Below are positions 30,326-49,098 of a stretch of 64,000 nt of DNA, one piece after another. The stretch is from positions 124,001 to 188,000 of the forward strand of contig JAIQZU010000084.1 of assembly GCA_021776915.1 (NCBI GenBank), in the 5' to 3' direction. Each line of letters opens with the position of its first letter. The first letter of the stretch is position 1. The stretch comes from Candidatus Scalindua sp. Lineage in GTDB: Bacteria; Planctomycetota; Brocadiia; Brocadiales; Scalinduaceae. A model generated the notes under the pieces. That model searched no databases and was not told where the DNA came from. It worked only from the letters and a program-made list of their open reading frames with translations. A program made the translations under genes and the position numbers.

Positions 30326-31654
30326 TCATGAGGTTTTGCACTCCTTTTTTCCCCAAAACTGTTCGGACACTGTTAGATCTCTTGGTATATCGATCTCAGT
30401 CCAATTTCCCTTAATTTGCACAAGATCTACTGAATATCCTCTATTTATTATCTCTTGTAACATATCTGTTAAATAAGCTTTTTTAAAGGATTTCGCAGTA
30501 TGGAAGGCTTGACCTGGATTCTCATAATAATATTGCAATAAGTCATTAAAAACATCTTTAAGTATTTCAGCTCCTTTCCTACTAAAATATGCAACTCCCA
30601 GAAATTCACCAAAAGCATTTTTGGAATCTGCATCTTTTCTGATTAACGTTACAGTCTTCCTGTTTTCAGAGAATACCAGTTCTGCTTCTGATATCGGATG
30701 ATCAACTCTATCTTCGTAATATTCAAGCCAGTTACAATCAACCGCTATTGCAATATCCGAATTTGTTTCGAGCATTTGACGAATAATAACTTCATCATAG
30801 ATTATATCTGAGTATGAAAACAGAAATCCGGAATTCATAGCTTCTTCAGCGTAAAAAAGGGAATGGAGAATATTGTTATTCTCGTAATCAGGATTAACGT
30901 AACATTGATACCGGTCATCATTAAAATACTCTTTCTTATAACCAACTACTATATTAATGCCTGTAATCCCGCAATTTAGAAGATTATCAATCAACCTGTC
31001 TAGTATTGTTTTTCCATTAACATTCAACATGCATTTTGGTTTTTCTTTCTTAAAATGATTCATGCGATTTCCCATTCCTGCTGCAACAATTATTGCGTTT
31101 AAAGGTTTTCTGCCCAAAAATCTGACGACTTCGCCTAATAATAATCTCTGACACTCCTCAATTGTTAAGGATTTCGTATTAATTACTAACTCTGGCGAAT
31201 CCGATGTTTCATAAGATTCAGTAACACCTATAAAGTTTTCATACTCCCCATTCAGAGCCTTCTGATAATGGCCTTTGTAATCTCTCTCGATACATACTTC
31301 TAAAGGACAGTTCAGGAAAACTTCCATAAAATTGGTTATTGTATCTCTTGCCTTTTGCCTTATGTCTCTCTTATGGGATATTGCAGTAACGATAACAATA
31401 ATTCCATTTTCATTGTACTTACTAGCCATCTGTATAGTTTTTCCCAGTATTGCATTCCGCTCATCAGTCATATATCCATGGGTTTCTCCTAACTCTTCCC
31501 TGATAGCTTCTCCATCCAACAACTTAACATTATTTACACCAATTGCTTTCAAATCATTAAAAAGTTTTCCCCCTAACGTACTTTTTCCCGATGCGCTTAC
31601 CCCTGTAATCCAAATAGTCCCGGAAATTAATTCCTGATTTCTCATTATATTCAA
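30326..31654 (-). CDS. APS-kinase-like domain fused to a sugar/phosphoalcohol nucleotidyltransferase
   Basis: A 442-residue bifunctional protein. Residues 10-180 form a CysC/APS-kinase-like P-loop kinase: GVSASGKST (18-26), LLDGEAIREELG, AISHKRDIRQKARDT, and PLEVCIERDYKGHYQKA. From residue 185 a nucleotidyltransferase domain follows with IIVAAGMGNRM and KPKCMLNVNGK, the GxG-x-R and PK motif of LicC/PntC/RmlA-like enzymes. In Campylobacter jejuni the CysC-like Cj1415 and cytidylyltransferase Cj1416 are separate enzymes of O-methyl phosphoramidate capsule modification. Here equivalents are one chain. Making a CDP- (or NDP-) activated phospho substituent is the best guess. An ATG three codons in is also possible. 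Confidence 0.83.
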   Translation of the reverse strand: MNIMRNQELISGTIWITGVSASGKSTLGGKLFNDLKAIGVNNVKLLDGEAIREELGETHGYMTDERNAILGKTIQMASKYNENGIIVIVTAISHKRDIRQKARDTITNFMEVFLNCPLEVCIERDYKGHYQKALNGEYENFIGVTESYETSDSPELVINTKSLTIEECQRLLLGEVVRFLGRKPLNAIIVAAGMGNRMNHFKKEKPKCMLNVNGKTILDRLIDNLLNCGITGINIVVGYKKEYFNDDRYQCYVNPDYENNNILHSLFYAEEAMNSGFLFSYSDIIYDEVIIRQMLETNSDIAIAVDCNWLEYYEDRVDHPISEAELVFSENRKTVTLIRKDADSKNAFGEFLGVAYFSRKGAEILKDVFNDLLQYYYENPGQAFHTAKSFKKAYLTDMLQEIINRGYSVDLVQIKGNWTEIDIPRDLTVSEQFWGKKECKTS

Positions 31655-38185: not shown

Positions 38186-38821
38186 TCAAAGCTTCAAGAA
38201 ATTTTCTATAATCTTCAGGCCTGTCTTACCACTCTTTTCCGGATGGAACTGACATCCGTAAACGTTATCCTTTCTTGTACTTGAACAGAACCAGTCGGAA
38301 CCATATGGTGTACGGCTTAACCAGTACTTATCCTTTTCCGGATAAGGAGCATACGAATGCACAAAATACATATCTTTTCCAGGAGAAATTCCTCTTAAAA
38401 TCGAGTCGCCCCAGAAAGCATGATCCCTCCCTTCGGGGATATCAATCGAATTCCATCCTATGTTTGGTATCTTTGTACCAGGTTGCTCTATTAATCTCTT
38501 TACTGTACCCGGTATTATATTCAGGCCTTTATGAACACCAAACTCTTCGCTGCATGTAAACAGAAGCTGCATCCCAAGGCAAATACCCAGGAATGGCTTT
38601 CCTTTTTTTATGAAATCAAGTGCTGGCATGATGAGATTCTGCTCTTGTAATCGCCTGATTCCTTCTCCAAATGCTCCAACCCCCGGCAAAACAATGTAGT
38701 CGGCATCCTTAAATTCATCGGGACAATTGCCGATCGTAACGTTACATCCAAAATACTCAAATGCCTTAGCCACGCTGAATATATTTCCATAAAAATAATT
38801 AATAATCTTGACTTGTTTCAT
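38186..38821 (-). CDS. hisH: HisH-like glutamine amidotransferase subunit
   Basis: A 211-residue class I glutamine amidotransferase. PFLGICLGMQLLF has the nucleophile Cys81 and VYGCQFHPEKSGKTG the His/Glu pair. It hydrolyses glutamine to deliver ammonia to a HisF partner. The start shares the TGATG with the end of hisF (1-bp overlap), so the two are co-translated. No other histidine genes are near; instead an N-acetyl sugar amidotransferase is 6 kb upstream in the same transcription unit, the arrangement used in amidino-sugar pathways (WbpG with HisH2/HisF2 in Pseudomonas aeruginosa). Confidence 0.92.
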   Translation of the reverse strand: MKQVKIINYFYGNIFSVAKAFEYFGCNVTIGNCPDEFKDADYIVLPGVGAFGEGIRRLQEQNLIMPALDFIKKGKPFLGICLGMQLLFTCSEEFGVHKGLNIIPGTVKRLIEQPGTKIPNIGWNSIDIPEGRDHAFWGDSILRGISPGKDMYFVHSYAPYPEKDKYWLSRTPYGSDWFCSSTRKDNVYGCQFHPEKSGKTGLKIIENFLKL

Positions 38822-39582
38822 CAGTGTCTGACAGCTGCAATACTATTTCTCCCCAGTATCTCTTTTATCTCAGCAATAGTGAATCTTCCATAGTGCAGCA
38901 TCGAAGCGACAGCCACTGCATCCACACCAGCATCGCGTATCACGCCTCCTATGTCCTCAGGTGTTTTTGCACCACCACTTGCAATCACAGGAATAGAAAC
39001 AGACTCAACAACTTTCCTGATAAGTTCAGTCTCGAACCCCTCACCCGTTCCGTCCATATCAACCGAGGTCACCAATATCTCACCCGCACCTAAATCTTCA
39101 ACCTTCTTTACCCAGTAGAGTACATCAATGCCTGTCTTCTCACGTCCACAATCTATGTATATTTCCCATTTTCCGCCGGACATACGCTTAACCTGCAACG
39201 ACACTACCACAGCCTGCGAACCGAGTGCAGTGGCAATCTCGGTAATAAGTTCAGGTCTTTTTACGGCTGCAGTGTTAATTGCTACCTTATCTGCACCGCT
39301 GTGCAAAAGCTTTTGCGCATCCTCCACACTGCGTATACCCCCGCCTACTGTCATAGGTATGAAAATATGCGTTGCAGCTTTTCTAACTATATCAGTCAGA
39401 TTATTTCTTTCGTATAGACTCGCAACGGTATCGATATAAAGAACTTCGTCTGCTCCCTGTTCGTAATATATACCCGCCATTTCATCCGGCTTTCCCATAA
39501 CCCTCAAGCCATCGTAACGAATACCTTTTATTACGTTTGGACCTTTTATATCTAGCCGGGCAATAATTCTAATTTTGTCCAT
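38821..39582 (-). CDS. hisF: HisF-like ammonia-channel subunit with altered catalytic Asp
   Basis: A 253-residue beta/alpha barrel. Using Thermotoga HisF numbering, which matches this sequence nearly exactly, Arg5, Glu46 and Lys99 of the ammonia gate and the catalytic Asp11 (ARLDIKG) are kept, as is the later gate Glu in GAGEILVTS. The general acid Asp130 is replaced: the strand reads VVSLQVKRM with Gln130 where the biosynthetic enzyme has VVAIDAKR. Ammonia conduction is thus plausible without normal IGP synthesis. It is best read as the partner of HisH feeding the sugar amidotransferase at 44937-46178. Confidence 0.9.
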   Translation of the reverse strand: MDKIRIIARLDIKGPNVIKGIRYDGLRVMGKPDEMAGIYYEQGADEVLYIDTVASLYERNNLTDIVRKAATHIFIPMTVGGGIRSVEDAQKLLHSGADKVAINTAAVKRPELITEIATALGSQAVVVSLQVKRMSGGKWEIYIDCGREKTGIDVLYWVKKVEDLGAGEILVTSVDMDGTGEGFETELIRKVVESVSIPVIASGGAKTPEDIGGVIRDAGVDAVAVASMLHYGRFTIAEIKEILGRNSIAAVRH

Positions 39583-39615
39583 TCCTGTTCCAAATGTACA
39601 AACTATAACTAAACC

Positions 39616-41385
39616 TCACGCTACTGTTGTATCTAACGATTTCTCAAAAAAGAAAGAGAGATTGATAAGCTGCCATATATAAAAAGAATTACTCATGTCA
39701 TTACTGTTATAGAAATTGTCGAATACACGAAAATAAGTTTCAGGCAGGAAATTCGACCGTTTCAGTATATGTATTCGTTCAAATGCCCAATCCTTAAGCC
39801 TGCCCCGCAGCCATACGGTTTGAGGTGTAACCACTGACCTTTTCGGCACCGAATAAACTTGTTTCATGTGCCTTTTTATTATCATGCGCAAAGGATATTT
39901 ACTAAGCCCTTCTCTGTATTTCAATGAGTGGTCGAACGCCAGTCCATACGCCAGGACATTGTGGTCAAGCAAAGGAAACCTCACTTCCCTGCCGCACGCC
40001 ATCGAGGCTCGGTCGTGAAATCTTAAAGTACGGGGAATCTTATTCTGCAGTATGTCATAAACCTGAATAGTCCTTAACCAGTCCATGAACATCGTTACAG
40101 GCTTCTCCGCTTTACTTCTAAGATCAGTAAGGTCTGTATGCGAGCTGAATCCTGACCGGGTCAATTTCTCCGAGACTTTTATAACCTTATCCAGCGTTGT
40201 ACTTGTAACGTCTAACAACTTTTCCAACAGTGAATGATGTTTTCCTAAACGGTGAAGGTCATACATTGCCATGTATATATGATAGAGATAACCTCCAAAG
40301 GTTTCATCTCCTCCCTGCCCTTCGATGGAGACAATATAGTCACTCTTACGTTCCTGCATGTTTAATTTATAATATGCTATCACAGGAATTCCAGCGTAGG
40401 GCTCATCTTCAAAATTGTGCAGAACCCTTGCATACTCTGGCACCTCTTCAGGAGAAAGAAAGACTTTCCGGTTCTCTACGCCTACATAACTGCAATATTC
40501 TTCAGTCAAACGTGATTCATCAAACTCTTCCTCGCAATATCCCATGGTATAAGCTACGATAGGATAATCCCACCCCCAAACCTCCTTTATTTTTAATAAG
40601 AGTGCTGTGCTGTCAGTCCCGCCACTATAATGTATTGATATAGGCACATCACTCCTTAACCTTATCCTTATCGATTCGGAGAGAAGGGATTCATACTCCT
40701 CAACCGAAAGCTTTCTCTCTGCAAGATGCATACACTCTTTTTTCAGGTCATAATATATATTCTCTTTCACTTCCTCGTCCCTGTATTGCACCCATGTACC
40801 AGGCTCAACCTGGACAATACCGCGATAGAAGGTTTCTTTTCCAAAAGGATATATACCCATATCGAGATAGTCTGTAACTTTCTCTCTATCCAACTTCAAA
40901 TCAGTCATTCCCCTGAAACATTTTATCTCAGAAGCGAAATACAAAGAATTTCCAGACTTCAGATAATACAAAGGCTTTATACCGAATCTGTCTCGTATAA
41001 GAGATAGAGACCTCTCTTGCTTATTATAAATAACCATAGCGAACATACCGTTAAGCATATCCAGCTTATCCAGGCTATATTTTGATAGAAATTCCACCAA
41101 AACGCGGGTATCCCCGTTGGAAGCCAGATCAGGTTCATCCAGAAACTCTGCAATTTCCCGATAATTATAAATCTCCCCATTAAAAACAACTACAATGCTG
41201 CCGTCTCTTGAAACCATCGGCTGTCTGGCATATTTCTCTTCGCCAAGTATTGCCAACCTGAAATGTTTCAGGTACAACTCGTCGTCTCTGTATTCGCCCT
41301 CTGAATCAGGCCCACGGTGCCGGATGTTAAAAGCCCCGGCGATCCGGGCAGGATCTGCATTTACCAAACCAAAGAATCCGCACAT
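39616..41385 (-). CDS. asnB: Asparagine synthetase-like glutamine amidotransferase
   Basis: A 589-residue class II glutamine-dependent amidotransferase. The chain starts MCGFFG (Cys2 nucleophile), continues NIRHRGPDSEG and FNGEIYNYREI, and has the synthetase PP-loop SIHYSGGTDSTALLLK followed by SIEGQGGDETFGGY. It converts a carboxylate to an amide through an acyl-AMP. In O-antigen and capsule loci, relatives amidate uronic acids. It lies 8 bp downstream of a second paralog and 33 bp upstream of hisF. The two proteins are clearly diverged and may have different substrates. Confidence 0.9.
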   Translation of the reverse strand: MCGFFGLVNADPARIAGAFNIRHRGPDSEGEYRDDELYLKHFRLAILGEEKYARQPMVSRDGSIVVVFNGEIYNYREIAEFLDEPDLASNGDTRVLVEFLSKYSLDKLDMLNGMFAMVIYNKQERSLSLIRDRFGIKPLYYLKSGNSLYFASEIKCFRGMTDLKLDREKVTDYLDMGIYPFGKETFYRGIVQVEPGTWVQYRDEEVKENIYYDLKKECMHLAERKLSVEEYESLLSESIRIRLRSDVPISIHYSGGTDSTALLLKIKEVWGWDYPIVAYTMGYCEEEFDESRLTEEYCSYVGVENRKVFLSPEEVPEYARVLHNFEDEPYAGIPVIAYYKLNMQERKSDYIVSIEGQGGDETFGGYLYHIYMAMYDLHRLGKHHSLLEKLLDVTSTTLDKVIKVSEKLTRSGFSSHTDLTDLRSKAEKPVTMFMDWLRTIQVYDILQNKIPRTLRFHDRASMACGREVRFPLLDHNVLAYGLAFDHSLKYREGLSKYPLRMIIKRHMKQVYSVPKRSVVTPQTVWLRGRLKDWAFERIHILKRSNFLPETYFRVFDNFYNSNDMSNSFYIWQLINLSFFFEKSLDTTVA

Positions 41386-41392
41386 AGCTTAC

Positions 41393-43249
41393 TCACTGTA
41401 AAGTACATTCTGAAAACCATTTCATAAATACGTATATCCTAAACCACTTCTCAGCACTAAGATGATCATAGTTATTTCTGTCCAGTTGGAATGCATCCTC
41501 ACAATCGGATTTCAATATGGACCCCTTCCTGAACTTACCGGAATGTAACAAATCCAACATTTCATCACCTAAAATCTTGTAGATAAAATGAGCGTTGTTT
41601 CCCGGACGGGGACTCTTTGTCTTGCGCTGTACGACCTCAAGTGGAAGATACTTCTCCATGGCCTTGCGAAGCATGGCTTTATTCCTGCCATTCTCCATGA
41701 ATTCAACATATTTGTATTTAAATACCGTCTCCAACAATTTATGGTCTAAGAACGGAACGCGGGCTTCTATGCTAAAGGCCATAGAATTTCTATCTTCCAT
41801 CCTGAGCACATACGGGAGGTCTCTCTCGAAAAGATGCTGCCTGGTGTGAGCAAAAAAATAGTTACCGCAATTATCTGAGATTTGTGGATAATGAGATCTT
41901 TCAACGATATCCGTGTGGGCATTAATAAACTCAGATGCAAGAGTATTATAAGCAGTAATATTCTCCTGTCCGCTCAACCTCGATAAAACTATTTCTTCGT
42001 ATGAATTCAGGCCCTTCCTGATACTCTCCTCGGTCACCTCCATGAAATCTACTGCACCCTTTATGGCGCGGCTATATTCATCGATCTTCTCTTCCTTCAG
42101 CAACATAAATAAAAATGGATACAACATCCGCCTGTAACCACCGAAAACTTCATCTCCACCCTCCCCAACGAGCAAAACCTTTATTTTCTCTTTTGAGATA
42201 GCCCTCCTTAACAAATACTGATAAATACAACTACTTGACTGGAAAGGCTCATCATGTGCGTTAAGCACATCACTAACTACCTGAGGAATATTTTTGAAAT
42301 CCAGCCCCAGATAAGAGTGCTTCACACCGGTATACTCAACTGTCCTTTCTATCCAGGACGATTCATCAAGTGTTTCCGGAGGTATCACACTAAATGCCTG
42401 GAGTGTGTATGGAGAATCATTTACTGAATTAGCTACCGCTGTCACTGAGGAAGAGTCCATGCCTCCGCTTAATGTCGTAGCTACCGGTACGTCAGAACGC
42501 AGATGCAAAGACATGGCCTCAAGAAAGATGTGGTTGAATTCGTCTATGTTGAAATCTCTATCTCCTTCGCAGGAAAGAGACCAGTACTTCTGCCTGATAA
42601 CGCTATCTTCGGCAATCCTAATATAAGTGGCAGGAGGTACTGAGCTTATATACCTGAAAAATGTTGCATCCGAATCATCCAACCATCCCTTTGCAAGATA
42701 CTTAAAGACTGTGTTCTCATCAACAGCCCTGCTGTGAGGAACATATTCGAGAATGCATTTGATCTCCGAGGATATCGCATAAAAGTTTTTGTCTTCATAA
42801 ATGTATAGCGGTTTTATCCCTAAGCGATCCCTGTAAATATGCAGTTCCTGTCGCTTCGTATCCCATACGGTAAAGGCAAACATACCCCTGAGATGCTCTG
42901 TACAGGAAGAACCAAAATGCTCAAAACTCTTCAGTAATACCTCAGTATCCGAATTGGTTCGGAAAGAATACCCCTTCTTTACCAAATAATCCCGCAGTTC
43001 TGTGTAGTTGTATATCTCACCGTTAAAAGCGATAACAAACCTTTTATCGTCGGATAACATGGGCTGATGTCCCATATCTGAAGTGTCTATGATACTGAGA
43101 CGTCGGAAATAGACTCCCCACCGTTCGTCAACATACACTCCCTCATCATCAGGCCCGCGATGAAGCAGTTTCTTGCCAACTTCCATAATTCTGGCCTTTT
43201 TGCCAGACAGATTTTCTGTCTTACTTAAAACTCCAAAAAATCCACACAC
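41393..43249 (-). CDS. asnB: Asparagine synthetase-like glutamine amidotransferase
   Basis: A 618-residue class II amidotransferase, second copy. MCGFFGVLSK (Cys2), LLHRGPDDEGVY, FNGEIYNYTEL, the ATP PP-loop TTLSGGMDSSSVTAVA and LLVGEGGDEVFGGYRR are all present, and the C-terminal ARVPFLDHKLLE is conserved. It is closer to canonical AsnB than the downstream paralog but its location among sugar genes suggests glycan amidation. It abuts the methyltransferase gene (stop at 43250, start at 43249). Possible role in asparagine synthesis for the cell is not excluded. Confidence 0.9.
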   Translation of the reverse strand: MCGFFGVLSKTENLSGKKARIMEVGKKLLHRGPDDEGVYVDERWGVYFRRLSIIDTSDMGHQPMLSDDKRFVIAFNGEIYNYTELRDYLVKKGYSFRTNSDTEVLLKSFEHFGSSCTEHLRGMFAFTVWDTKRQELHIYRDRLGIKPLYIYEDKNFYAISSEIKCILEYVPHSRAVDENTVFKYLAKGWLDDSDATFFRYISSVPPATYIRIAEDSVIRQKYWSLSCEGDRDFNIDEFNHIFLEAMSLHLRSDVPVATTLSGGMDSSSVTAVANSVNDSPYTLQAFSVIPPETLDESSWIERTVEYTGVKHSYLGLDFKNIPQVVSDVLNAHDEPFQSSSCIYQYLLRRAISKEKIKVLLVGEGGDEVFGGYRRMLYPFLFMLLKEEKIDEYSRAIKGAVDFMEVTEESIRKGLNSYEEIVLSRLSGQENITAYNTLASEFINAHTDIVERSHYPQISDNCGNYFFAHTRQHLFERDLPYVLRMEDRNSMAFSIEARVPFLDHKLLETVFKYKYVEFMENGRNKAMLRKAMEKYLPLEVVQRKTKSPRPGNNAHFIYKILGDEMLDLLHSGKFRKGSILKSDCEDAFQLDRNNYDHLSAEKWFRIYVFMKWFSECTLQ

Positions 43250-44179
43250 TTATTCGTCTCTCTTAATACTGTCCAACCGGTCGAACCTGGCCAAAGTTTC
43301 ATCTATAGAATCCCGCTTGCCGGCATCTATGATACTAAAAAAACGTTTCTCATCAGGAATATCTGATACCCTACCCATACAAAAGATGCCACCGGGCCGC
43401 GTCGGCCCACAGATAGGATCGTCTGTAGTAAGCACAGGTTCCCAGCCATGCTTAATCATCATTAGTTCCATGGAAGTAAATGTAAAATACCTATGGTGAT
43501 TGTGATTGAAATAGACTTTTGACTCGCCCTGAGGATGGCCCCTGCCTTCGAGAAGAAGATACCCGTCAGGCGCCGACGCCTTCCTGCAAATCTCAAGTAC
43601 TCTATTCGGTGCATACACATGCTCAAGAGAACCCAGGATTATGGTAAATGCATATTTTCCGTTTTCCAGTTTCATATCTTCAGCACTCATCGCCTCAACC
43701 GGAAGGCCAAGTTTTTCTTTACCGTACTTGACAAACCCGGCATCAGGATCAGTGCCGTATGCTTCCCATCCGGCTTTCATAAAAGGGATAAGCATTGTCC
43801 CAACCGAACAACCAACATCAAGCACAGCCCCTGATCCGTTGAAATATCCTTTTACTGCCTCGTATAAAAGGTCACCGCGCCTTTTCTGGTCATCAATAAA
43901 CTTCTGGTCAGGCACTGAATTACCTTTAACTATATTGCGGTAAAACTTAGTATAATAATCATCATAAAACTTCCGGTTGAAACGCGGACTCTGGTAAAGA
44001 AACCCACACCTGTTACACGCTACCACAGGTAATTTACCAAAGGTATCCTTTCCGATTGATATTATTTCTCGGACAACCGTTGTCTCTGCACACCCACAAA
44101 CTTCACAAGGGACATCTTCAGCGCTGTACTCCCCCTCCATGCCAAGATGTGCGAGATAATCCCCCAAATATTTTTCCAT
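43250..44179 (-). CDS. Zinc-finger class I methyltransferase
   Basis: A 309-residue protein. N-terminal VPCEVCGCAETTV and VACNRCGFLYQSPRF give two CxxC pairs, a zinc ribbon seen in sugar C- and N-methyltransferases. The SAM site is AVLDVGCSVGTMLIPFMKAG with YGTDPDAGFVKYGK, then TIILGSLEHVYAPNRVL and PDGYLLLEGRGHP. It sits between the AsnB-like genes and a CmoA-like methyltransferase. In amidino-nonulosonic acid chemistry, methylation of the acetimidoyl nitrogen is known (Legionella), which this gene or the next could do, but that is inference. Confidence 0.82.
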   Translation of the reverse strand: MEKYLGDYLAHLGMEGEYSAEDVPCEVCGCAETTVVREIISIGKDTFGKLPVVACNRCGFLYQSPRFNRKFYDDYYTKFYRNIVKGNSVPDQKFIDDQKRRGDLLYEAVKGYFNGSGAVLDVGCSVGTMLIPFMKAGWEAYGTDPDAGFVKYGKEKLGLPVEAMSAEDMKLENGKYAFTIILGSLEHVYAPNRVLEICRKASAPDGYLLLEGRGHPQGESKVYFNHNHHRYFTFTSMELMMIKHGWEPVLTTDDPICGPTRPGGIFCMGRVSDIPDEKRFFSIIDAGKRDSIDETLARFDRLDSIKRDE

Positions 44180-44191
44180 GCGTTATCTCCT

Positions 44192-44920
44192 TTATTTAAT
44201 ACAGAGGAACCCTTCAAAACATATATACTTAAACACAGTCACAACATCTACAAACCCCGCCCTCTTAAGAAGATCAATATTTCCTTGGGTGGAAAAAGGT
44301 TCTAATATTCCTTTTAGGCTTCTGGATTTGGCAATTATCTCCTCAGAACTGTAACTTTGCTTTAATTTATAATCAGTGTACAGGCTTGTCATCATATCCT
44401 GAAACCTGGCGTCAGGGCCTCTAACCTTTTCGAACATAAGAAAAGCCCCTCCCCAGTTTAAAGTTTTATATATCTTATTTAACAACTCTTGTCTTAATCT
44501 TGGAGGAACAAACTGGAGGGTGTAATAAGAGACAATGAAATCGCTGGGACTATAACCATAAAGGCTGATATCATCAACCACTAAGTCTACATTGTCTAGT
44601 CTTTCTTTCTCCTTGCCCAATTCCTTTTGGGCCTGCTCAATCATCACAGGTTCAATATCGATGCCTATCCACCTTACGGAAGGCTTATGCCTTTTAGCAA
44701 GCAGCTTGATCAACGTAGCAGTAGATGCTCCCAGTTCATAGCAAGTAGAATCAGGCTTAACAAAGAAATCACTGATTTCAACGACTAACTCGTGTCCTGC
44801 ATCGTAGAATGGCACTGATCTTCTGACATGTTCATCAAAATTCTTCGGTGTATTATCTCCAAAAGTCCATGAAGCATTACCCGCGTTAATGCCCTCGCCA
44901 ACTCCATTTAAATTATCCAT
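44192..44920 (-). CDS. CmoA-like SAM/carboxy-SAM-fold methyltransferase
   Basis: A 242-residue protein strongly reminiscent of CmoA: the FDEHVRRSVPFYDAGHELV opening, YELGASTATLIKLLA as SAM motif I, GIDIEPVMIEQAQ, NFTLQFL-like YYTLQFVPPRLRQELLNKIYKTLN and the closing FKYICFEGFLCIK. CmoA normally makes carboxy-SAM for tRNA wobble uridine modification with CmoB. No cmoB is seen here and the gene lies between a zinc-finger methyltransferase and the sugar amidotransferase, so it may have been recruited to methylate or carboxymethylate the amidino sugar. A housekeeping CmoA remains possible. Confidence 0.78.
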   Translation of the reverse strand: MDNLNGVGEGINAGNASWTFGDNTPKNFDEHVRRSVPFYDAGHELVVEISDFFVKPDSTCYELGASTATLIKLLAKRHKPSVRWIGIDIEPVMIEQAQKELGKEKERLDNVDLVVDDISLYGYSPSDFIVSYYTLQFVPPRLRQELLNKIYKTLNWGGAFLMFEKVRGPDARFQDMMTSLYTDYKLKQSYSSEEIIAKSRSLKGILEPFSTQGNIDLLKRAGFVDVVTVFKYICFEGFLCIK

Positions 44921-44936
44921 AACGCCCTCCTTTCAT

Positions 44937-46178
44937 TCACTGATCTTCGTAGAAGACAGCATGTCTTAACTTCCACACTCCTCCCTCCTTTTTCCAGAGG
45001 TGAGGAGATCTGGCCTGGTCTATCAACTCCCAGAAATACTCCTCGTCTATATCCATATACTCAAGGATTTCTTTAAAGTACTTCTGAGGAAACTCGCCAT
45101 CATATTTCTTAACAAGCGCAGCCCCTTCCGCTCTGACAATCTTGTGATTTCGTATTTCCTGGGCAGCATCCATGGTAGCTCTACCAAGACCGAATTTTAT
45201 AAAACTTGTATAATAATGGAAGCCGTCTATTCTGTCATCGAGGCTGGCATATTTTGAATATGTCCCTTCCGTTCTTTCCGGATTGGCCTCGAATCCCGTA
45301 TTTTCGACAGCGTGATAATATACCTCCTGGGGGTCCCATCTTAGATAATAGCCAAGGAAATGATATTCCAGAGGGAAATCCTTCAATTCTTTTTCAATAA
45401 GAGGCAGATATAACTGCAGATCATTAAGATCGATGTCAAATTCCTTGATCAGTTCATTCACATTCACTCCTCCCAGATATATCGATTCGTGATTGGAATC
45501 TGAATAAAAATATTTCTTCCTGAAACCCCTTTCTTCCGTTTCATTCATAGTAGAACATCCATACTCAAAAGGGCTCTCCCCATGAAAGACAAGAGGTATA
45601 TTAAATTTCAGCGCCATCCTGAGACCGGCAAGCCTTTGTCCAAAGACAAAAGGCTGGAACGGATGCAAGAGGTTTATGAAGGCAAGTCTTGTCAATAGCC
45701 GGTGCACCCTGCCGTTCGGAGTTATCAGGATATTATCAAAACCGGAATGTATCCAGCTTTGGAAATTCTTCCAGCCGATATCCGTATATTTATGGGGCGC
45801 CCAGGTCACTGTCAGGGGGTGCATCCCGTATTTATCTTTCAAGGTATGTGCAGTAAAGCCGCTGTCCTTGCCGCCGCTTCCGGGAATAATACAATCATAA
45901 CTGCCGTCATCAGACCGGAAACGATCACACAGTTCTATCAATTCTTTCTCGCGCTCCTCCCAGTCGATCACGTTATCCTTCATTTCTGCGTATCTGCAGG
46001 CAGAACAAACCCCTTCTTCATCAAAGAAGGTCGTCTCTTTTACGGAGTCTTTTGTGAATCCAGCTTCATTGGTAGGCTGGGGACGCTGATTTGACAGAAC
46101 GCACTTTTTGCAGAATTTAACCTCTGCGGGGAGGCCATATTTGACCTCAAGCTCGTTGTTTGTAGTAATCTGGCCCAT
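44937..46178 (-). CDS. wbpG: N-acetyl sugar amidotransferase (WbpG-like)
   Basis: A 413-residue protein. Two CxxC pairs (Cys23/26 in CKKCVLSNQRP and Cys58/61 in CSACRYAE) probably bind zinc, and PGSGGKDSGFTAH (from 99) is the ATP pyrophosphatase PP-loop. This is the WbpG/PseA/LgaG class that converts an N-acetyl group into an acetamidino group using ammonia from HisH/HisF. NFQSWIHSGFDNILITPNG and LVFHGESPFEYG are characteristic. It precedes the CmoA-like gene by 16 bp and follows the CMP-nonulosonate synthetase gene by 6 bp, so the substrate is probably a legionaminic- or sialic-type sugar precursor. Confidence 0.91.
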   Translation of the reverse strand: MGQITTNNELEVKYGLPAEVKFCKKCVLSNQRPQPTNEAGFTKDSVKETTFFDEEGVCSACRYAEMKDNVIDWEEREKELIELCDRFRSDDGSYDCIIPGSGGKDSGFTAHTLKDKYGMHPLTVTWAPHKYTDIGWKNFQSWIHSGFDNILITPNGRVHRLLTRLAFINLLHPFQPFVFGQRLAGLRMALKFNIPLVFHGESPFEYGCSTMNETEERGFRKKYFYSDSNHESIYLGGVNVNELIKEFDIDLNDLQLYLPLIEKELKDFPLEYHFLGYYLRWDPQEVYYHAVENTGFEANPERTEGTYSKYASLDDRIDGFHYYTSFIKFGLGRATMDAAQEIRNHKIVRAEGAALVKKYDGEFPQKYFKEILEYMDIDEEYFWELIDQARSPHLWKKEGGVWKLRHAVFYEDQ

Positions 46179-46184
46179 AATAAT

Positions 46185-46910
46185 TTATCCTCCGCATTTT
46201 TTCTTGATAAAACTTTCGGCTATCAACCAATCGTTTGCATCATCTATATTTATTGAAAACTCTTCAGACATGACATACGCCAGTACCTTGCCGCCGTAAA
46301 TAGAGCCAGTCTCTTGAAAAATAGTTTTTCTGAATGCATATACCGCACCGTTTCTGGTATATGTCGGTTGGAGTTGTTGCCTCCGTGATATGATGGAGTT
46401 CCATTCATCTCCTGTGAAAATCGACAGTTCATTGTGCTCGTTAATCAATAACTGCCAACCCGGATGGTATTTGGAAGGCAACATTGAGACGCTAACGATA
46501 GAATCAGCACCGGAAGCAACAAGAGTGTCAATACACTCATCTATGTCCTTCGGAGATCTAAAAGGAGTCGTAGGTTGCAATAAAACTATTATTTGAGGCT
46601 CATACCTCTCTTCATCTTTCAGATAATTCAATGCATGTAAAACATAGTCTATTGCGGGAGAATCATCCTGTGAAATTCCAGGTGGCCTTAAAAATGGAAC
46701 TTCTATCTCTGCAAGCCTTCCTATTCCAGCTATCTCCGGGCTGTCCGTACTCAAAATAATACGGGTAAGACGTCTACTCTGTTTTGCCGAATCAAAAGTG
46801 TATTCTATTAAAGGTTTGTCGCCGAGCATTTTAATATTTTTCTTCTCTATACCCTTTGAGCCACCTCTAGCAGGTATAATCCCCAGAATATCTAATTTGT
46901 TGTTTCCCAC
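46185..46910 (-). CDS. neuA: CMP-N-acetylneuraminate/legionaminate cytidylyltransferase
   Basis: A 241-residue cytidylyltransferase. IIPARGGSKGIEKKNIKMLG is the CTP-binding motif of NeuA/PseF/LegF, followed by STDSPEIA, RPPGISQDDSPAIDYVLHAL and LLQPTTPFRS. It activates a nonulosonic acid as CMP-sugar for a transferase. Spacing of 12 bp after the hydrolysing epimerase gene and 6 bp before wbpG indicates one operon. It is about the usual length for the catalytic domain without the extra C-terminal phosphatase of some NeuA proteins. Confidence 0.92.
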   Translation of the reverse strand: MGNNKLDILGIIPARGGSKGIEKKNIKMLGDKPLIEYTFDSAKQSRRLTRIILSTDSPEIAGIGRLAEIEVPFLRPPGISQDDSPAIDYVLHALNYLKDEERYEPQIIVLLQPTTPFRSPKDIDECIDTLVASGADSIVSVSMLPSKYHPGWQLLINEHNELSIFTGDEWNSIISRRQQLQPTYTRNGAVYAFRKTIFQETGSIYGGKVLAYVMSEEFSINIDDANDWLIAESFIKKKCGG

Positions 46911-46922
46911 TCTAAATAATTG

Positions 46923-48086
46923 TCAGTAAGTAAACTTCTTATTCAGGTTCAGAGGCACTTTTTCAAGATGCCTGGCGATTTTTTCACCAGCGCTTCCGTC
47001 CCCAAAAATAGTCTCTTGCGAATATCGTCCGTGTTCAAGCTGGTACTGAATCTTTTGTATTATATCTTCCCTGTCGTAGCCTGCGAAAACCACGTTCTTT
47101 CCGTGCTCCCGCCCTTCCTGTCTGTCACCGATAATAACAGCCGGAACCCCAAGAAACGACCCTTCTCTGATAAAAGAGCTGCTATTACCAATAAGACATT
47201 TGGCATTGGCCAGGAGACTAACAAAAATTTCAGGAGGAAAATTTATGTGAAATGAAAAGTCCGCTTCTGTCCTTGCTTCATGAAATTCCCGTATAGCCTT
47301 GGAGACATCATCACTTCCGGCATCCGGATTAGGCCACAGTACTAATTTTGTCATAGGCATATCTTTAACTGCGGAAAGAGTAGTTTTCATTTGAACTGCC
47401 CCTTCTCCAAACGATGTAGTTACAGGATGCTGGAGGATTAACATGTAATCTTTACCCGGATCAAATGGGTTTCCGGTGCCTCTATTTATAAAATATTCTT
47501 TTGAAGGCGGAGTTTTATCTATATTATGAACAACATCCATAGCCGGACAACCTGCAAAGAAAACCCTGTCCGGATCCTCCCCCATCCTGATAATACGATC
47601 GGCACTTTCTCTGGTAGCAGGAAAATGTAAATGCGACAATTTGGTCACAGCATGTCTGACAGAGTTATCAATATTTCCGGATATTTCTCCACCCTGTACA
47701 TGTGCCAGAGGAATGTTTAAATACGTTGATGCTATTGCGGTAGCCATAGTCTCATATCTGTCAGCAACGGTAACTACCACATCCGGCTTTAATTCCTGAA
47801 AAGCTGTGGACAACTCAATAATACCCATCCCTGTGGATTTAGCCTGAGTGGTTAAATTTTCACCCTCTACCAGATAGTGTATCTTCCAATCTGGTTCAAA
47901 TCCGTCTTCCGCCATCACATCAACTGCGCGACCATATTTATAAAGCAATGCTGATGCGCCCACAATCAGCTGAAGCTCAAGATTATTGCTCTCTTTTACT
48001 GCTTTCAAAAGATATTTGATGCGGCCGTAGTTCGCCCGGCTCGCCACAACTACACATATTTTTCTCTTATACTCTCTATTTGACAT
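46923..48086 (-). CDS. neuC: Hydrolysing UDP-N-acetylglucosamine 2-epimerase
   Basis: A 387-residue protein of the NeuC/LegG type. VVVASRANYGRIKYLLKAV, VTVADRYETMATAIA, HVQGGEISGNIDNSVRHAVTKL and GNSSSFIREGSFLGVPAVIIGDRQ are characteristic and differ from WecB. It produces free ManNAc (or the 2,4-diacetamido-hexose in legionaminic acid synthesis) from the UDP-sugar. It overlaps neuB by 11 bp and is followed by neuA. The pair with the SDR and acetyltransferase at 8.8-10.3 kb would suit a legionaminic route, but plain sialic acid also fits. Confidence 0.92.
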   Translation of the reverse strand: MSNREYKRKICVVVASRANYGRIKYLLKAVKESNNLELQLIVGASALLYKYGRAVDVMAEDGFEPDWKIHYLVEGENLTTQAKSTGMGIIELSTAFQELKPDVVVTVADRYETMATAIASTYLNIPLAHVQGGEISGNIDNSVRHAVTKLSHLHFPATRESADRIIRMGEDPDRVFFAGCPAMDVVHNIDKTPPSKEYFINRGTGNPFDPGKDYMLILQHPVTTSFGEGAVQMKTTLSAVKDMPMTKLVLWPNPDAGSDDVSKAIREFHEARTEADFSFHINFPPEIFVSLLANAKCLIGNSSSFIREGSFLGVPAVIIGDRQEGREHGKNVVFAGYDREDIIQKIQYQLEHGRYSQETIFGDGSAGEKIARHLEKVPLNLNKKFTY

Positions 48087-49098
48087 CTTCCTCCCTTATG
48101 AAACTGTTTTTCTTTATATCTACTTTTAATATTTTCCCGATGACTTTCTGGTAATGTTTTGTGGGAATTCCAAGAGTGCGTGGCTTTCTGTCTTCAAGGT
48201 CATTTTGTGTTATTTTTTGACCTTGCCTAAGATCCTTGTTAACAACCAGCGATTTACCAAACATGGCTTTGAGCTTTTGGAATTTGGAAGCATCACCTTT
48301 ATCAACAGGATGCTTGAGCATACCTTCTATAAACCTGATCCCTTTTACCAAAAGCTTAAATTCATCAATACTCAACGATGATGGTGAATCAGGGCCGAAC
48401 ATCCTTTTGTCAAAGACAGCATGACACTCTATAAACACAGCTCCCAGAGATACCGCCGCTAATGAAGGAAAAATCTCCCCGGAATGGTCTGAAAGCCCAA
48501 CTTTCACACCAAATCGCTTAGAAAGTTCAGGGATTACATTTAAGCCTACTTCTTGAGGTTTCGTCGGGTAACTAGTGGTGCATTGAAATAATGCAATCCT
48601 GCTTTCTGGATATTTAAAGAATCTGATTGTTTCCTCAATTTCCGTAAATGTACTCATTCCCGTTGAGATTAATACCTCCTTACCGGTTTTCTTTATTCTG
48701 TCCAACATCAGAAAGTTATCGATTTCACCGGAAGCAATCTTATAACGTTTCACTCCTAAATCTTCCAAAAGTTCAACTGCAGAAAGAGAAAATGGTGAGG
48801 CTAGAAACTCAACTCCTTTCTCATCGCAATGATGCTTGACGCCTATCCATTGCTCCCTTGTAAATTCCATCCGCTTCCAATAATCAAAACGAGTTTTGTC
48901 TACATAGCTGAAAGGCACACGAAACTTTTCATACTTAGAACTTTCCTTTTCCGCAATATGAACCTGAAATTTAATGATATCTACACCAACCGTCGCCAAG
49001 GCATCGATATATGAGTGAAGTATACCTAAACTCCCCTCATACGCCTGTGCTAACTCGGCTATAATCTTTACGTTGTAATCACTATCCATTGATTCCAT
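48076..49098 (-). CDS. neuB: N-acetylneuraminate/legionaminate synthase
   Basis: A 340-residue enzyme. KIIAELAQAYEGSLG, DIIKFQVH, FLASPFSLSAVELLEDLGV, YKIASGEIDNF, LISTGMSTFTEIEE and GLSDHSGEIFPSLAA are the NeuB barrel motifs. A C-terminal SAF-type antifreeze-like domain (about 280-340, SLVVNKDLRQGQKIT) is present. It condenses phosphoenolpyruvate with ManNAc or its analogue to make the nonulosonic acid. The first ATG (49098) is used; a second Met three codons later (MDSDYNVK) is possible. It heads the nonulosonate block, 42 bp after the YfhO-like gene. Confidence 0.93.
   Translation of the reverse strand: MESMDSDYNVKIIAELAQAYEGSLGILHSYIDALATVGVDIIKFQVHIAEKESSKYEKFRVPFSYVDKTRFDYWKRMEFTREQWIGVKHHCDEKGVEFLASPFSLSAVELLEDLGVKRYKIASGEIDNFLMLDRIKKTGKEVLISTGMSTFTEIEETIRFFKYPESRIALFQCTTSYPTKPQEVGLNVIPELSKRFGVKVGLSDHSGEIFPSLAAVSLGAVFIECHAVFDKRMFGPDSPSSLSIDEFKLLVKGIRFIEGMLKHPVDKGDASKFQKLKAMFGKSLVVNKDLRQGQKITQNDLEDRKPRTLGIPTKHYQKVIGKILKVDIKKNSFIREEDVK

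Follow-up and report, generated by a model that had tools for sequence, protein, structure and literature searches.

Gene content of the locus

The 64,000-nucleotide stretch of Candidatus Scalindua sp. DNA analysed here (the window; positions 124,001 to 188,000 of contig JAIQZU010000084.1, assembly GCA_021776915.1) contains ten minus-strand genes in a single run, of which neuB (49098) is the first and hisH (38186) the last; neighbouring genes overlap slightly or lie no more than 33 bases apart. Our subject is hisF2 within this run, which encodes a relative of HisF, a subunit of imidazole glycerol phosphate synthase. The gene order is neuB, neuC, neuA, wbuX, a CmoA-like methyltransferase gene, a further methyltransferase gene, two asnB-like genes, hisF2 and hisH, the last overlapping the hisF2 stop by 1 base. 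An earlier note on this DNA (the original prediction) had placed HisH, a WbpG-like amidotransferase and NeuA, NeuB and NeuC in one operon with a HisF paralogue, and the tight run agrees with this; the two asnB-like and two methyltransferase genes went unmentioned there. The features are as follows.

38821..39582, minus strand: HisF2 of the Arg9 clade (defined below), 253 residues; (beta/alpha)8 barrel, proposed ammonia conduit, D130Q
39193..39195, minus strand: Gln130 codon, CAG (Asp130 in HisF)
38186..38821, minus strand: HisH-type class I glutaminase (TIGR01855, 195.5 bits; cut-off 105.4)
39616..41385, minus strand: second AsnB-like amidotransferase, likewise including a Cys2 glutaminase domain (TIGR01536, 310 bits, above cut-off)
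41393..43249, minus strand: AsnB-like amidotransferase that includes a Cys2 glutaminase domain (TIGR01536, 413 bits, above cut-off)
43250..44179, minus strand: S-adenosylmethionine (SAM) methyltransferase (PF13489/PF08241)
44192..44920, minus strand: CmoA-like SAM methyltransferase, candidate glycan N-methyltransferase (TIGR00740, 139 bits, below the cut-off of 193.3)
44937..46178, minus strand: WbuX/WbpG-type N-acetyl sugar amidotransferase (TIGR03573, 354 bits; cut-off 203)
46185..46910, minus strand: NeuA/PseF-type cytidine monophosphate (CMP)-sugar cytidylyltransferase (PF02348; TIGR03584, 132 bits, below cut-off)
46923..48086, minus strand: NeuC-type hydrolysing 2-epimerase (TIGR03568, 363 bits; cut-off 235.9)
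48076..49098, minus strand: NeuB-type nonulosonate synthase (PF03102; TIGR03569, 276 bits, below the cut-off of 399.7)

By alignment, the HisH-type protein has its catalytic Cys, His and Glu intact. The WbuX-type protein has both the PP-loop motif SGGKDS and a tetracysteine motif, and it matches the N-acetyl sugar amidotransferase (NASAT) of Legionella pneumophila (PDB 8WEX, E=4.7e-158), an enzyme type thought to add ammonia to the N-acetyl group of a sugar using ATP (PMC10607449). NeuC thus scores over its family cut-off, and NeuB and NeuA under theirs. The ten-gene order is identical in an Omnitrophota metagenome-assembled genome (MAG), L055, with proteins 55-75% identical. Both AsnB-like proteins begin with MCGFFG and have glutaminase domains of their own, and therefore have no need of HisH; that such a pair (39616-43249) lies within a nonulosonate operon is conserved in L055. 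PADLOC gave no match. Elsewhere in the window, an adenylyl-sulfate kinase domain is fused with a sugar nucleotidyltransferase domain (30326-31654).

The HisF2 protein

In HisF, Asp130 is the general base and Asp11 the general acid (PMC11350729); Asp11, Asp130 and Asp176 are each essential or important, and HisF also conserves Cys9 (PMC2667513). When HisF2 is aligned with Thermotoga maritima HisF, its beta5 strand S128-L129-Q130-V131-K132 stands opposite A-I-D-A-K, and R5, D11, E46, K99 and E167 are intact. Both residue claims of the original prediction, namely that the strand reading SLQVKR puts Gln in place of Asp130 (codon CAG at 39193-39195) and that Asp11, Arg5, Glu46, Lys99 and the gate Glu (E167) are retained, were therefore confirmed. 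The D11+D130 pair of HisF is thus broken by Q130, and the gate R5/E46/K99/E167 is complete. HisF2 also departs from HisF by C9R and by the loop1 changes T21I, N22R and F23Y, none of which the original prediction mentioned. The predicted model is a confident barrel (predicted local distance difference test, pLDDT, 91.3) with a template modelling (TM) score of 0.91-0.95 to solved HisF structures.

The best NCBIfam score of HisF2 is with HisF (TIGR00735, 278.3 bits; curated cut-off 294.55), and it also scores under the curated cut-offs of WbuZ (TIGR03572, 273.4 bits against 299.7) and AglZ/HisF2 (NF038364, 201.6 bits against 310). A sequencing error behind Gln130, after correction of which Asp might have reappeared, was rejected, and an assembly error is unlikely because the independent genomes L055 (HisF2 71% identical) and L056 (63%) carry the same CAG codon.

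The Arg9 clade

A genome scan gave 80 relatives with Arg9, from many phyla and some DPANN archaea. In a tree built without positions 9, 11, 98, 130 and 176, the Arg9 clade is supported at 100/99, a WbuZ/AglZ clade at 100/100 and the sisterhood of the two at 97/90, with a bootstrap that had not fully settled and nine WbuZ rows (a Legionella-class search for more, at too strict a threshold, gave one match). The window HisF2 forms one branch with those of L055 and L056 (100/98), and it belongs to the Arg9 clade by R9, D11, the gate, the adjacent hisH and monophyly. Plain WbuZ membership was rejected, as the protein scores under the cut-off and lies outside the clade with D11 changed to Leu; the locus has the context of WbuZ, in that its saccharide genes include wbuX and a hisH homologue. 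Only one further copy was seen in the same genus (G688); it shares 56% identity and is placed elsewhere in the Arg9 clade. Since L055 shares the ten-gene order and the G688 copy groups elsewhere, horizontal transfer is likely.

R9, R5, D11, E46, K99 and E167 are each present in all 80 members, and GGG80-82, N103, G177 and G203 are invariant too. Position 130 is Glu in 70, Gln in five, Asp in two, and His, Val (L114) and Ala (L118) in one each; position 176 is Glu in 74 and Asp in six, and position 225 is Asp in 54. Canonical HisF (n=49) has D11, D130 and D176 throughout, so that D130 is found in 49/49 canonical proteins vs 2/80 Arg9 proteins, a difference greater than chance. In the WbuZ/AglZ clade (n=9) D11 is Leu in all, D130 and the gate are kept in all, and D98 is Glu in six (L135, L136, L155, L167, L171 and L197), a change that hyperactivates the glutaminase in T. 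maritima HisF (PMC8115485). Judged by their residues, the sister clades have thus lost opposite members of the catalytic Asp pair and kept the same gate. The tree requires ten changes at position 130 and one at position 11. Gln130 as the hallmark of the clade was rejected: it is not fixed, Glu130 being the norm (70/80), and Gln (5/80) makes up a small branch and sporadic recurrences.

Twenty residues are invariant throughout the Arg9 clade and uncommon in HisF. The former catalytic face holds 16 of them, against an expectation of 7.4 (p=6e-5), and the HisH face holds none, the face boundaries having been drawn by us from the predicted model. This clustering suggests that the face, as modelled, is a rebuilt partner or effector site rather than a decayed one, and it probably has a conserved new role. 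One such role could be another catalysis, gained by HisF2 on a sugar or phosphate-bearing ligand, which would fit the invariance of R9, D11, GGG80-82, N103, G177 and G203 and the near invariance of E130 and E176. There is also precedent in HisF, where removal of the D130 charge gives weak TrpF activity (PMC2667513) and a D130V+D176V variant binds a TrpF ligand analogue (PDB 4ewn). We consider a gained activity improbable, as position 130 tolerates E, Q, H, V, A and D, unlike a catalytic residue, no pathway step of the operon calls for such an activity, and the operon shows no tryptophan genes.

Within the stretch examined around each of the 80 loci, hisH is always adjacent, wbuX is near in 73, neuB in 66 and a LegC-like aminotransferase gene in 52. 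The HisH partners keep Cys84 (79/79) and, where aligned, His178 and Glu180 (76/76 each). Three natural HisF-HisH fusions were found, L060, L077 and L090 (Sedimentisphaerales MAG), in which HisF comes first, the reverse of the eukaryotic HIS7 order; an AlphaFold model of a HisF-HisH fusion was poor with three sequences (pLDDT 66.0, predicted TM score 0.51) and was not used.

In a planctomycete genus (L211, L212 and L213, L214; G098 and G010) there is a hisH-linked HisF that scores above the TIGR00735 cut-off and has Gln130 with an intact gate, together with a second HisF that keeps D11/D130 and has lost gate residues (R5S, D98S, K99S, E167R). A split of channelling from catalysis is possible there, to go by these residues.

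Host genome and histidine synthesis

The source assembly (3.79 Mb, 89 contigs, 95.2% complete, 3.6% contamination) holds a canonical hisF on contig C37 (387.8 bits, D11/D130 present), hisD on contig C1 and two hisH-hisA loci. HisF2 as the sole HisF of the genome, which the original prediction had named as a finding that would count against it, was therefore rejected; the second, canonical copy whose presence was to be checked is there. On contigs C23, C72, C37 and C21, the parallel gene order of the duplicated hisH-hisA segments, together with the beginning of another hisF at the edge of a contig, suggests that two related strains were binned together.

Among 24 genomes chosen for having an Arg9 HisF2, HisD is missing in six, and five of these (Legionella worsleiensis G398, a named American Type Culture Collection (ATCC) strain, and G406, G706, G707 and G711) hold the Arg9 protein as their sole HisF homologue; 17 of the 18 HisD-positive genomes have a canonical D11/D130 HisF too (Fisher p=8e-4). 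Because it is the only HisF homologue in five genomes without HisD, the Arg9 HisF2 appears, on this gene content, to persist independently of the histidine pathway.

These data bear on whether HisF2 could still be a subunit of imidazole glycerol phosphate synthase in which Gln130 is tolerated. TIGR00735 gives the top NCBIfam score (278 bits), and G010/G098 have a Gln130 HisF above the cut-off, both of which would fit. We nevertheless regard such a subunit as very improbable, given the canonical D11/D130 hisF in the same genome, the C9R and loop1 changes beyond D130Q, and the relatives that are kept where both HisD and a canonical HisF are missing.

Discussion

We favor, as the likely explanation, that HisH and HisF2 form a non-cyclase complex resembling imidazole glycerol phosphate synthase that feeds the WbuX-type amidotransferase for the acetamidino group of a nonulosonate. 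From the residues we infer that HisF2 has lost the cyclase activity on N'-[(5'-phosphoribulosyl)formimino]-5-aminoimidazole-4-carboxamide ribonucleotide (PrFAR). HisF2 (38821-39582) and HisH (38186-38821) would pair as a complex in which imidazole glycerol phosphate is no longer made. Glutamine would be hydrolysed by HisH, and the ammonia would cross the gate (Arg5, Glu46, Lys99 and Glu167), run through the barrel of HisF2 and leave at the rebuilt C-terminal face, where it would be handed to, or near, the docked WbuX-type PP-loop amidotransferase (44937-46178). Using ATP, WbuX could then convert an N-acetyl to an acetamidino group on the nonulosonate that NeuB, NeuC and NeuA would make. More generally, supplying a sugar-modifying enzyme with ammonia is probably the task of the HisF2 family. 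The original prediction had seen in the pair only an ammonia generator for acetamidino-nonulosonate synthesis. Cyclase loss, as far as residues indicate it, the gate, the HisH and WbuX partners and the nonulosonate-type operon uphold part of this, but "only" goes too far in view of the 16/20 clade-specific residues on the former catalytic face.

Several points weigh against our proposal. The curators of WbuZ reportedly note that WbuX activity does not strictly require the WbuY/WbuZ pair. The invariance of D11 exceeds the needs of a pure conduit. Gln130 alone is no proof of lost histidine function, because the G010/G098 HisF above the TIGR00735 cut-off carries it, and among the HisD-less genomes there are several small MAGs, which may be incomplete. 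Finally, wild-type Thermotoga HisH has only basal activity until PrFAR binds HisF, which activates it ~4500-fold (PMC8115485), and a PrFAR-free ammonia generator therefore needs another trigger.

On the last point we can offer a tentative scenario, which we hold to be possible but somewhat doubtful: HisF2 may have been recruited once to sugar amidation, followed by two opposite cyclase losses (Asp11 in one clade, Asp130 in the other), and in the Arg9 lineage the old PrFAR site may have become one at which WbuX docks and acts as an allosteric trigger, replacing PrFAR as the glutaminase switch. The first point could instead mean that HisF2 stabilises or activates HisH, and that the ammonia is freed to the cytosol and used by WbuX undocked. 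A WbuX that is said to act without HisHF-like partners would suit such a loose source, as would the finding of no HisF2-WbuX or HisH-WbuX fusion among the 80 loci. It is nonetheless unlikely in our view, as clade-specific residues cluster at the ammonia exit face and spare the HisH face, and 73/80 loci have WbuX close by.

The product could be of legionaminic or of neuraminic type, both being possible from the genes present. No LegC-like aminotransferase is encoded in the window operon or in that of L055, and one near the cut-off is encoded elsewhere in the host genome. In Legionella, separate genes are described for the acetamidino step on CMP-legionaminic acid and for N-methylation (PMC3766260), so that the two methyltransferases of the operon may, by analogy, act in N-methylation.

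WbuZ, with the HisH-like WbuY and WbuX, is the closest parallel, having the same HisF-like/HisH-like/WbuX saccharide locus, an intact gate and a place in the sister clade. WbuZ has D11 changed to Leu (9/9) and D130 kept, whereas the Arg9 clade has D11 kept, D130 lost and C9R; some Arg9 members, among them those of Legionella (307-309 bits), pass the WbuZ cut-off, and the window HisF2 falls below it. The AglZ/HisF2 acetamidino modification protein (NF038364) has the same proposed acetamidino-sugar role, but AglZ-type members lie in the D11L clade. With HisF (T. maritima 1thf/1gpw) the window HisF2 has in common the barrel fold, the gate, D11 and a HisH partner; it differs in D130Q, C9R, loop1, its sub-cut-off score, its sugar operon and the canonical HisF besides it. 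The Legionella legionaminic-acid locus likewise has a WbuX-type enzyme (8WEX, PMC10607449; ORF28/ptmG homologue, PMC3766260) and nonulosonate genes, and the Legionella relatives L064 and L067 carry an Arg9-type HisF2-HisH pair, but in the window operon two asnB-like and two methyltransferase genes are present in addition, and a local LegC-like aminotransferase is absent.

A glycosyl-amidation role of HisF2/WbuZ is already curated in NCBIfam ('glycosyl amidation-associated protein'; AglZ/HisF2). In the open-licence literature we found nothing on the catalytic residues of HisF2/WbuZ and no description of the Arg9 clade, of the way in which Asp11 is lost in one clade and Asp130 in its sister, or of the Arg9 clade in the absence of histidine synthesis. 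HisHF serves as a model system for both allostery and the channelling of ammonia, and the complementary cyclase losses offer a direct test of what HisF needs for channelling and glutaminase activation as opposed to cyclisation. We point out, moreover, that many genes annotated as hisF or hisH are likely sugar-amidation genes.

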